In this document: one piece after another, positions 24,286-26,399 of the stretch | Layout of the letters: each line of letters opens with the position of its first letter | Numbering within the stretch: position 1 is the stretch's first letter | NCBI RefSeq assembly: GCF_001941845.1 | Contig: NZ_CP018870.1 | Span: 2,015,001 to 2,079,000 of the forward strand | Length of the DNA: 64,000 nt | Source: Streptomyces sp. TN58 | Lineage (GTDB): Bacteria; Actinomycetota; Actinomycetes; Streptomycetales; Streptomycetaceae | Direction: 5' to 3' | Program-made: the position numbers and the translations under genes | The notes under the pieces: model-generated | Told to the model about the DNA's origin: nothing | Database searches by the model: none | What the model saw: the letters and a program-made list of their open reading frames with translations, nothing else

Positions 24286-24404
24286 GGGGGCGGGGGCTTC
24301 GGGGGGATCCGGGGGACTTCGGGGGGCCGCCGGGGCGGGGGCATCGAGAGGGGCGGCGGTGGCTTCGGGGGAGCGGGGGCCGCTGGGGCGGTGTCGGTGG
24401 GGTT
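24286..24404 (+). repeat. G-rich flank, left end of the inverted-repeat island
   Basis: Runs of five or six G alternate with CTTC or ATCC spacers (for example GCGGGGGCTTCGGGGGG). This fits a G-quadruplex pattern on the plus strand. The reverse complement of 26170-26290 is similarly G-rich and shares GCGGGGGCTTCGGGGGG, so this is probably the diverged outer part of the inverted repeat. Confidence 0.6.
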
Positions 24405-24751
24405 CTGGGGGTTTCCCGTCAGTCCCATCGTCTCTCCGCGTCGGGCCGGTCCGTCAAGGGCGCTCCCTTCGGTCGCGTCACTTCGTGAGGGCCTTCGGCC
24501 CCCCTTGACTGACCGTCCCGCCACGGAAATCCGAAAGACTGCCGGGAAGCCCCCAGAGGAACGGGCCGGCCATCAAGAGACACCCAGGGCGGTCGGCGCC
24601 GCGCGCCCGGATCCAGGGGCGCCCCAAATCGCTACGCGCTCCTGCCAGACGGCGTCTGCGAGCCCCGTGGGCTGGGCATAGGCCGCCCCAGATCGCTACG
24701 CGCTTCTCCATCGCGCGTCCGCGAGCCTCTTGGGCTGGGCATAGGCCGCCA
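24405..24751 (+). repeat. Long inverted repeat, left arm (IR-L)
   Basis: This arm matches the reverse complement of 25820-26168. Over the first ~170 bases I find one mismatch; the rest is about 80-85% identical. It contains tandem copies of a 63-64 base unit and no credible gene. The arms flank a two-gene cassette lying between thiG and the kinase gene. Confidence 0.85.
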
Positions 24752-24790
24752 TCGATCGCTACGCGCTTCTCGACGACGGCGTCCGGCCCT
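24628..24790 (+). repeat. 63-64 base tandem direct repeats in the left arm
   Basis: ATCGCTACGCGCT begins at 24628, 24692 and 24755, and each copy is followed by GCG-TC-GCGAGCC..TGGGCTGGGCATAGGCCGC. The third copy is truncated. Two copies occur in the right arm in the opposite orientation. Confidence 0.75.
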
Positions 24791-24982
24791 TGTTCGGGGC
24801 TGGGAGGGGCGAAATCGGGGGCGGGAAGGCGATTCATCGGCTTCGCCGAACCCAACCCCCAGCAAGGCCACGATGATATGCCACCCAGCGGCACAGACAG
24901 GGCAATTGGGGCGAAGCGAAGGGGGTCTGGGGTGCGCGCTCACCCAGACGTGGATGGGCATCACTTCAGCCGTCATCCGACG
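24752..24982. other. Non-coding stretch inside the cassette
   Basis: About 230 bases between the left arm and the regulator gene. It holds the end of the third direct repeat and a G-rich patch; I see no credible gene. A minus-strand frame from 24976 (MTAEVMPIHVW, then PNCPVCAAGWHIIVALLG) shows a hydrophobic patch, but no ribosome site or known family. Confidence 0.3.
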
Positions 24983-25291
24983 CTATTCCGGCTGCAGAGG
25001 GTGGCGCGCCGCTGCCACGATCCTCTCCAGCGCCGAGGCGTGCCGTTGGAGCGCCTGGCGCCCGTGCGGGGTGAGGCGGAGGTGTGTGTGGCGGCCCGTG
25101 GGGTTCCGCGTCTTGCGAACTTCGACATACCCGGCCTCCGCCAAGGCGGCGACCTGCTTGGACAGAGCCGAGTCGCTGGTGCCCACCGCGTCCCGGACGA
25201 AACCGAACTCCACCCAGTCCGCAGGAGCCAGCAGGGCGACGATCGACAGCCGCGCGGGAACATGCAGGAACTCGTCGAAGTCGGGGTCCAT
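24983..25291 (-). CDS. Small winged-helix transcriptional regulator
   Basis: The 102-residue protein of the short MarR/ArsR-like winged-helix type (HTH_34): MDPDFDEFLHVPARLSIVALL, recognition region VGTSDSALSKQVAALAEAGYVEVRK, wing RHTHLRLTPHGRQALQRHAS. No ligand-binding extension or Cys metal sites are seen. It is second in an operon with a membrane protein, one-base overlap of stop and start (TGATG). Two similar palindromes at the operon promoter are probable binding sites, implying autoregulation. Confidence 0.88.
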   Translation of the reverse strand: MDPDFDEFLHVPARLSIVALLAPADWVEFGFVRDAVGTSDSALSKQVAALAEAGYVEVRKTRNPTGRHTHLRLTPHGRQALQRHASALERIVAAARHPLQPE

Positions 25292-25743
25292 CAGCCCTGT
25301 CCGTTTCTGCGGATGATGCTCTCGACGGTCGGGCGCAAGGCGTAGGAGGCACCCACAGCCGCCAGCGCGGTGACGGCCGCGGCGAGCGTGTGCCGCGCCG
25401 ACAGGCCGAGGAAGTGGGCGGCGATCGCCACTCCCCAGAAGAGTACGAGGAGGAGGACCCCCAGGGCCGCGTAGAGCAGTGCCTCCGAGCCGACGATCTT
25501 GCGGCGGACGGGAGTCCGACGCTGGTGCATGAACAGCCCGCCGAGGGTCAGAGCGTTCCCCGCCAGGACCGCGGCGGTATTCCAGGGGGTCGGCAGGTCG
25601 AAGGACGAGCAGACGGCGAACAGCCCCAGCGCCGCAAGGATCGCGTGGGGGCGCGAGTTGGCGTGGCGGAGGTACGCGTCAAGCGTCTGCTGCCGGTGGT
25701 GACGTATGGCGTCGAGGGCGGTCTGGGCGTCGTAAGCGGTCAT
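25291..25743 (-). CDS. Small membrane protein paired with the winged-helix regulator
   Basis: The 150 residues contain an amphipathic N-terminus (YDAQTALDAIRHHRQQTL) and four probable membrane helices (about 32-48, 55-72, 86-109 and 115-133). I do not recognise a functional family; short membrane partners of MarR-like regulators are common in actinobacteria, and a signal-sensing or stress role is possible. ATG 25743 has GGACAAGGAC in its 5' region, with a -10-like TACTAG near 25763-25758 and two palindromes upstream. Confidence 0.8.
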   Translation of the reverse strand: MTAYDAQTALDAIRHHRQQTLDAYLRHANSRPHAILAALGLFAVCSSFDLPTPWNTAAVLAGNALTLGGLFMHQRRTPVRRKIVGSEALLYAALGVLLLVLFWGVAIAAHFLGLSARHTLAAAVTALAAVGASYALRPTVESIIRRNGQG

Positions 25744-25761
25744 GGGTGAGTCCTTGTCCTA

Positions 25762-25810
25762 GTACTTTCTCAGGAGGAAAGTACCACCTTCTTTCCGGAG
25801 AGGAAAGAAG
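25762..25810 (-). promoter_or_regulatory. Two tandem palindromic operators at the cassette promoter
   Basis: GTACTTTC and GAAAGTAC (25762-25784, 7-base spacer) and CTTCTTTCC and GGAAAGAAG (25788-25810, 5-base spacer) share the CTTTC..GAAAG core. Their centres are 26 bp apart, about 2.5 helical turns. They cover the promoter of the membrane-protein/regulator operon. Confidence 0.55.
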
Positions 25811-25819
25811 CTTCCCCAA

Positions 25820-26168
25820 TGGACAGCCTGTTCCCAGCCCAAGAGGCCTGCGGACGCGTGATCGAGGAGCGCGTAGCGATCGAGAGCGGCCTATGTCCAG
25901 CCCATGGGGCTCGCAGGCGCCGTCGGGCAGGAGCGCGTAGCGATTTGGGGCGCTCCTGGATCTGCCCGGGCGGCGCCGACCGCCCCGAGGGATGTCTTGA
26001 TGGCCGGCCCGTTCCTCTGGGGGCTTCCCGGCAGTCTTTCGGATTTCCGTGGCGGGACGGTCGGTCAAGGGGGGCCGAAGGCCCTCACGAAGTGACGCGA
26101 CCGAAGGGAGCGCCCTTGACGGACCGGCCCGACGCGGAGAGACGATGGGACTGACGGGAAACCCCCAG
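25820..26168 (-). repeat. Long inverted repeat, right arm (IR-R)
   Basis: Reverse complement of the left arm (24405-24751). The outer half is nearly identical; the inner half has two copies of the 64-base unit (GAGCGCGTAGCGAT near 25867 and 25931). No transposase gene or target-site duplication is evident. Confidence 0.85.
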
Positions 26169-26399
26169 GACATCTCCGAACCCGCCCGAGTGGATCCCGC
26201 CCCCCGAAGCCGCCGCCGCGCCTCCCACCCCCGCCCCCGCGCCCGGCCCCCCGAAGCCCCCGCCCGCACCCCCACCCCCTGGTCACCGCCCTGCCGGCGG
26301 CAGGCCGAGGCGCCGGTTCGGTGGTCGTTCACGTCACAGCTGCGCTGCAAGGCGACCCGCACCCGCCGGGGTCCTCGCGTCGGCTCGTAGAATCGGCGG
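26169..26399. other. C-rich right flank and upstream region of the kinase gene
   Basis: 26170-26290 is strongly C-rich, so the minus strand has G-runs able to form G-quadruplexes, mirroring 24286-24404. The last ~100 bases carry a TAGAAT -10 at 26388-26393 for the kinase gene. No gene is seen. Confidence 0.5.
26388..26393 (+). promoter_or_regulatory. -10 element for the kinase gene (leaderless)
   Basis: TAGAAT ends 6 bases before the GTG start at 26400, and no ribosome site is present. Confidence 0.5.

Follow-up and report, generated by a model that had tools for sequence, protein, structure and literature searches.

The results presented here reveal a family of long inverted arms that occupy the same chromosomal sites in several Streptomyces species, evolve in concert within each genome, and enclose accessory genes that turn over from genome to genome. 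The window, a 64,000-nucleotide stretch covering positions 2015001-2079000 of the 7.585-Mb single-contig genome of Streptomyces sp. TN58 (G000), holds one such element. It can be read as one copy of a set of dispersed chromosomal docking sites, in which the sites are inherited, the arms are homogenised by gene conversion, and the interior is replaced by arm-guided recombination; this reading could equally prove right or wrong. We infer hairpin extrusion, breakage and exchange as the mechanism behind it.

The window element lies between thiG and a PASTA kinase gene. Two inverted matches define its arms, 24368-24589 with 25984-26205 (222 nt, 92% identity) and 24587-24746 with 25826-25985 (160 nt, 88% identity). 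The outer 168 nt are 99% identical, in agreement with an earlier note on this DNA that had placed inverted arms at 24405-24751 and 25820-26168, near-identical over the outer ~170 bases. Each arm is a composite of a 153-bp imperfect palindrome (A half outward, B half inward) bearing a central three-hairpin cloverleaf, a spacer, and iterons of ~63 bp. Between the arms are a non-coding core, shortened on its right side, and a two-gene operon on the minus strand. The parts are as follows:

24286-24404, no strand: left outer G-rich flank; the inner ~60 nt are repeat, and beyond these the copies aligned outside the palindrome are similar only at the shuffled level
24405-24557, plus strand: left 153-bp palindrome with cloverleaf at 24452-24510; dispersed repeat with compensatory changes
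24588-24780, plus strand: left iterons, ~63 bp each, motif ATCGCTACGCGCTYCT; direct repeat family
24780-24989, plus strand: non-coding core common to empty copies, right end absent; 82% identical to positions 1-212 of the L048 core
24983-25291, minus strand: cargo gene 1, winged-helix regulator HTH_34 (PF13601, E 1.5e-21)
25291-25743, minus strand: cargo gene 2, an ORF for a 150-aa probable membrane protein; relatives in 13 other genomes of 384, no Pfam hit
25762-25810, no strand: two palindromes upstream of the operon, probable operators from reading of the sequence; kept in unarmed copies
25826-25985, minus strand: right iterons and spacer, the inverted match to the left arm
26016-26168, minus strand: right 153-bp palindrome with cloverleaf at 26063-26121; 99% identical to the left palindrome over 168 nt
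26169-26290, no strand: right outer C-rich flank; the inner ~60 nt are repeat

The earlier note had also described a winged-helix regulator and a membrane protein as the sole genes inside; the HTH_34 protein and the 150-aa membrane-like protein without a Pfam hit bear this out, and the ORFs place the unit between thiG and the kinase gene as claimed. Its G-rich outer flanks stand in part. Similarity between copies clearly exceeds that of shuffled sequence only in the inner ~60 nt, and the remaining likeness is mostly composition and short repeats. In five genomes similarity outside the palindrome decays over ~60 nt, and no sharp outer end of the kind expected of a MITE or mobile insertion cassette was found. 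A view of the flanks as locus-specific inverted duplications was dropped for this genome, since 21 of 22 flanks of paired TN58 copies scored higher with the flank of another locus than with their own partner. An Rfam scan gave four sub-threshold matches, taken as chance.

Used as a query against TN58, the window arm gave 38 matches, far above chance and in two dozen cases close to full length; the search for further copies suggested in the earlier note thus uncovers a large dispersed family. The TN58 genome holds 24 arms, forming 11 inward-facing pairs and two solo arms (L041, L045). L042 and L048-L052 contain only iterons and a common 280-nt core, 92-97% identical to the L048 core; L052 has a second core copy at 88%, and the core of L047 is partly replaced. 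Four pairs carry cargo: the window pair, L044 (a GNAT acetyltransferase), L043 (one protein with no Pfam hit, plus a stretch sharing 88% identity over 68 aa with the L118 NUDIX protein), and L046 (a 2OG-Fe(II) oxygenase-like ORF and one further ORF). L044, L047 and L054 depart from the core at approximately positions 197-212, which in three copies is only suggestive of a fixed cargo junction. The solo arm of L045 (2288-2447) is adjoined by genes resembling IS200/IS605 tnpA and tnpB (L045:163-1827), the tnpA-like gene being one of two Y1 matches in the TN58 genome.

The family extends to other Streptomyces. A palindrome search at E 1e-8, with the best two candidates per genome scored, had hits in 38 of 392 genomes. 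With a covariance model of the cloverleaf, 50 of 199 genomes passed E 1e-4; only 19 of these went below 1e-10, and the others mostly had a single weak match. With the best 27 candidates per genome scored, this model gave at least 27 matches in G006, 25 in G189 and 24 in TN58; the RNAalifold structure behind it (R1) omits the first hairpin. Five relatives have from 12 to at least 40 arm matches each. Carriers of a 21-base arm pattern include S. virginiae, S. lavendulae, S. avidinii, S. katrae, S. amritsarensis and S. yangpuensis. An Acetobacteraceae record with the same pattern had no arm in the stretch inspected, and a viral contig with the pattern had no cloverleaf by regex. Long inverted arms with a cloverleaf, of otherwise diverged sequence, surround a middle in four of five stretches of G006 and in G004 and G326; the inverted match in G315 is weak (66%). 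The G326 element also contains tandem repeats of ~110-120 bp adjoining a small ORF (L284:1900-2500). Phage records gave no arm match. Plasmid records gave one arm only, internal on a linear Streptomyces plasmid (L330:5001-7311, NZ_CP108163.1) with GNAT, pterin dehydratase and Tat-signal genes after it and no detected partner arm. Searches of the open-access literature showed no description of the arm family; a word search of PMC3733652 gave no mention of Streptomyces.

Of the 68 loci examined in six genomes, 56 hold a pair of arms facing inward, and a pair facing outward was seen at none; 56 of 68 is no unbiased rate, because the loci of four genomes were chosen mostly for looking paired. The set contains all TN58 pairs and solo arms (the weak match L053 left out), all arm hits of G189, and part of the hits of G215, G054, G285 and G378, mostly apparent pairs and for G378 from the best 40 candidates. 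A further 106 stretches, the G189 loci included again, gave 82 with an arm, 31 with a pair and none facing outward; of the 75 without a pair, 24 had no arm detected and 41 had the inward side cut by the stretch end. Elements are located mostly downstream of genes. By a crude gene finder, 25 of 56 lie between convergent genes and one between divergent genes, compared to 27 and 56, respectively, of 200 neighbouring gene pairs in the flanks.

At the thiG site, the element is the exception. The thiG gene was found in 31 of 32 genomes, and 30 stretches were compared. A cloverleaf is present in four of the 30, and a fifth stretch (G058) breaks off within an arm, at a contig edge. The states of the site include arms without cargo (G215), a bare palindrome (G378), arms with cargo (G189) and a half element (G294), and there are just 140-240 nt at the site in G070, G243, G285, G055 and G054. 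The unit had been proposed to be an inserted island without its own transposase. The dispersed repeat on which it is built and its absence from this site in most Streptomyces examined support that proposal. Comparison of empty and filled sites for a target-site duplication met intergenic DNA that is too diverged and an outer boundary that is gradual. By eye, G099 has regulator-like and monooxygenase-like genes at the site with a half-arm remnant, and G273 has an acetyltransferase-like gene and no arm; these small genes (L098, L093) are perhaps cargo that outlived its arms. In G294, as judged by eye, an inverted copy of the sequence that follows thiG precedes the kinase gene and lies beyond the half element (L096:822-1501).

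Sites are shared between genomes far more often than expected. The same site was found in different genomes for 42 cross-genome locus pairs, 24 of them by both flanks, against a random expectation of ~0.3 assuming 6500 intergenic regions. The loci group into 38 sites, and 19 of these are common to at least two genomes. None of 28 same-site pairs of paired loci share a cargo ORF. Cargo was detected on both sides in six, on one side in 14 and on neither in eight; only six pairs compare cargo with cargo, because in 22 of 28 one or both loci are without detected cargo, and in all six the cargo differs. For example, one site is empty in TN58 (L048) but occupied elsewhere, by a GntR regulator (G189, L119), a glyoxalase (G378, L145), or a PadR regulator with a hydrolase (G054, L298). 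A simple codon score was used to call cargo ORFs and detected them at 23 of the 56 paired loci; L043 was added by hand, and long interiors called empty (L148, 3.1 kb; L142, L143 and L309) may contain missed genes.

Cargo is also shared across sites, by 33 different-site pairs. One recurrent 60-84-aa protein accounts for 28 of these, 15 within one genome, and NUDIX-type or CYTH proteins account for five (L118 with L043, as above; L149 with L113, 87% over 101 aa). The recurrent protein (L113:4983-5237, with relatives in L114, L116, L117, L119, L123, L147 and L043) was observed at eight loci in three genomes, and the single copy scanned had no Pfam hit.

In a wider set, two same-site pairs share cargo, one fully and one partly; eight rows at 100%, which represent the G189 genome twice, were left out of this count. 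At the thiG site, S. lavendulae CCM 3239 (L239) and G189 (L113) have the same cargo, collinear and 86.6% identical, and L206 shares cargo in part with L043 at the same site. These pairs show both the in-place inheritance of elements and the ability of the comparison to pick up shared cargo where it exists. An inversion of cargo between L113 and L239 was apparent only, as the whole L239 stretch is reversed and the locus is collinear once flanks are compared. No inversion of the cassette, a possibility raised in the earlier note, was seen, the one clear same-site, same-cargo case being collinear with its flanks.

The arms follow the genome rather than the site. Arms at different sites of one genome have an average identity of 0.927 (n = 1358), and the two arms of one element 0.935 (n = 56). 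Between genomes the mean is 0.871 for the same site by both flanks (n = 84), 0.860 for the same site by one flank (n = 55) and 0.862 for different sites (n = 6073). A tree of 99 arms groups them mostly by genome; the exceptions are the solo arms L041 and L045 and the left arm of L043, which fall outside G000, and some arms of L120, L122, L123 and L144, which cluster with another genome. Both ends of L046 and of L049 match the left arm of L048 best. The arms of L239 are identical over 156 nt, whereas its cargo and flanks differ by 11-16% from G189.

The window operon exists elsewhere without arms. The membrane protein is present in 14 of 384 genomes, TN58 included, and at its other loci the regulator is adjacent in 14 of 14 and an arm is present in none, within at most 3.4 kb per locus. 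G243 and G285 match the window over 25001-25810 and 24995-25810, respectively, both at 83%, an extent that runs from the operator palindromes to no more than 20 nt from the regulator stop. Arm-guided exchange may have put the regulator and membrane-protein operon at the thiG site.

Several results favor the docking-site reading: the 56 inward pairs of 68 with no outward ones, the shared sites, the greater likeness of arms within a genome, and the lack of cargo sharing in 28 same-site pairs against its occurrence in 33 different-site pairs. It is further favored by the unarmed window operon in other genomes, by the lack of a transposase recurring among the cargo ORFs scanned, and by the S. lavendulae element, with two identical arms around a cargo inherited in place and common to G189. 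In the proposed mechanism, two inward-facing arms, each with cloverleaf palindrome and iterons, enclose a bay with no cargo or with one to a few accessory genes. The arms would form single-stranded DNA hairpins during replication or repair, the likely trigger of exchange, and would be prone to breakage. Broken arms may be repaired by homologous recombination with other arms, located in the genome or in incoming DNA. Repair of this type would even out the arms of a genome; if it involved both arms of an element, the interior would be replaced and the cargo swapped. Against this reading, zero recombination events were observed, just six same-site pairs set cargo against cargo, most of the different-site sharing comes from the one recurrent short protein, two same-site pairs of the wider set share cargo, and some arms (L120, L122, L123, L144) are off pattern. 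Of the two origins proposed in the earlier note, recombination of a dispersed repeat is the better fit.

The other, mobilisation in trans, remains the main rival, although it is rather unlikely. The elements would be non-autonomous transposable elements of the MITE, foldback or mobile-insertion-cassette type, moved in trans with passenger genes and re-inserting into preferred intergenic sites. Dispersed inverted arms, varied passenger genes, the lack of an own transposase, positions mostly downstream of genes and the existence of empty sites are all consistent with such elements. So is arm uniformity within each genome; clustering of arms by genome could also result from fresh insertions into preferred sites. 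However, several species have elements at common sites far more often than random placement would give, one element was inherited in place with its cargo, and there is no sharp outer end. Among 30 cargo ORFs scanned besides the window pair, no recombinase or transposase recurs; one transposase was found (DDE_5, Pfam, L115:4507-5757). By eye, L134:3714-4893 contains ORFs resembling an IS3 transposase. The insertion sequences in L115 and L134 are single cases. Y1 (PF01797), the single-strand transposase family and the sole transposase family searched, is absent from seven of nine arm-rich genomes (the control search was positive in 5 of 14 known genomes), and it was rejected as the general driver.

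An improbable alternative is that the arms serve as bidirectional transcription terminators or insulators that shield the cargo from read-through, the repeat spreading or persisting for that role. Read inward, the loops would be c(UNCG)g in RNA, and 25 of 56 elements lie between convergent genes, both as expected of terminators. Across 18 lineages, the cells of the proposed cloverleaf are 98.9% paired, with two-sided changes in 5 of 20 pairs and one-sided changes in none. Four of five measures were above all 500 shuffles and the fifth was reached by 14, a control in which relatedness of the sequences can inflate the result. Compensatory changes are present, and G-T (G-U) pairs are nearly absent. 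Hairpins 2 and 3 of 199 distinct arms have 1783 Watson-Crick, one G-T and seven mismatched cells (1 of 1791 G-T), counts taken with a regex that picks partly paired arms with TNC loops and so favors Watson-Crick cells and fixes the loop pattern. The scarcity of G-T favors a DNA over an RNA hairpin, although high G+C also lowers G-T. The presence of several hairpins and iterons per arm is also unlike a terminator, and an RNA role leaves shared sites with changing cargo unexplained.

As DNA, the window cloverleaf folds with z of -4.05 and -3.53 on the two strands, and two other copies with approximately -2. Hairpin 2 and 3 loops are TTC, TGC, TAC or TCC, which is GNA on the opposite strand. Read inward with a stem of at least 3, C(TNC)G and C(GNA)G hairpins number 453 vs 30 in arms, 98 vs 96 in flanks and 32 vs 31 in middles; with a stem of at least 4 the counts are 209 vs 13, 34 vs 30 and 7 vs 11, respectively. 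Published Streptomyces telomeres carry GCA or GGA loops in which sheared G:A pairs form the closure, and Tap binds these telomeres (PMC4513846, PMC7205883). Among 16 chromosome ends, four (G054, G286) have packed hairpins of the same polarity as the arms, 23 vs 0 in the first 400 nt, two (G215) have 2 vs 0 each, and ten have none, presumably because the assemblies stop short. The two TN58 contig ends (L314, L315) share an identical first 240 bases, indicating that a terminal inverted repeat was assembled, and no packed hairpins were seen there. Arms and telomeres thus have in common packed palindromes, polarity towards the end, and GNA triloops on the strand with the outward-pointing 3' end. 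Unlike telomeres, the arms are internal in the chromosome, as is the plasmid copy, are paired around cargo, occur in tens of copies and have another sequence. Most improbable is that the elements are what remains of small linear replicons integrated in the chromosome, the arms being their telomere-like ends on either side of the genes: loop type and polarity are those of the four packed chromosome ends and the published telomere hairpins have sheared G:A loops (PMC4513846, PMC7205883), but no replication gene was found among 30 scanned cargo ORFs and the window pair, and the single plasmid match is internal.

Known systems resemble the arm elements in part. Mobile insertion cassettes and MITEs with passenger genes likewise have terminal inverted repeats around non-transposase genes, lack their own transposase and occur in dispersed copies; the arm elements differ in arms of 150-500 bp with cloverleaf and iterons, a gradual boundary, sites common to species and concerted arms. 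Foldback elements of eukaryotes have long inverted arms with tandem subrepeats in variable number around a variable middle. The arm elements share this layout, but are bacterial and have polarised mini-hairpins and sites common to species. REPINs, moved by RAYT (Y1) transposases, are also paired inverted palindromes with many copies per genome, whereas the arm elements are far longer and carry cargo, and seven of nine arm-rich genomes lack Y1. Integron gene cassettes are interchangeable small genes with structured DNA sites, features shared with the arm elements, which differ in scattered sites, one bay per site, inverted arm pairs, and no integrase among 32 scanned cargo proteins. We consider with moderate confidence that the arm-cassette system is of a new kind; it fits none of the known families considered in every feature tested, and no open-access description was found. 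If transposition proves to be the mover, the arm elements would be a variant of passenger-carrying inverted-repeat elements.

Finally, it is possible, although doubtful, that Streptomyces chromosomes contain a distributed gene-exchange system that has no recombinase of its own. Each genome would have fixed docking sites, from about ten to several tens of them, where polarised telomere-type DNA hairpins provoke and guide homologous swaps of small cassettes between sites and species. If so, the telomere hairpin type would be used within a chromosome, and palindrome-driven gene conversion in bacteria would become directly testable. The docking sites would also be natural landing sites for engineering. 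Streptomyces could acquire and exchange small accessory genes at predictable places with no transposase or integrase devoted to the task, and the docking sites would explain part of Streptomyces gene turnover.
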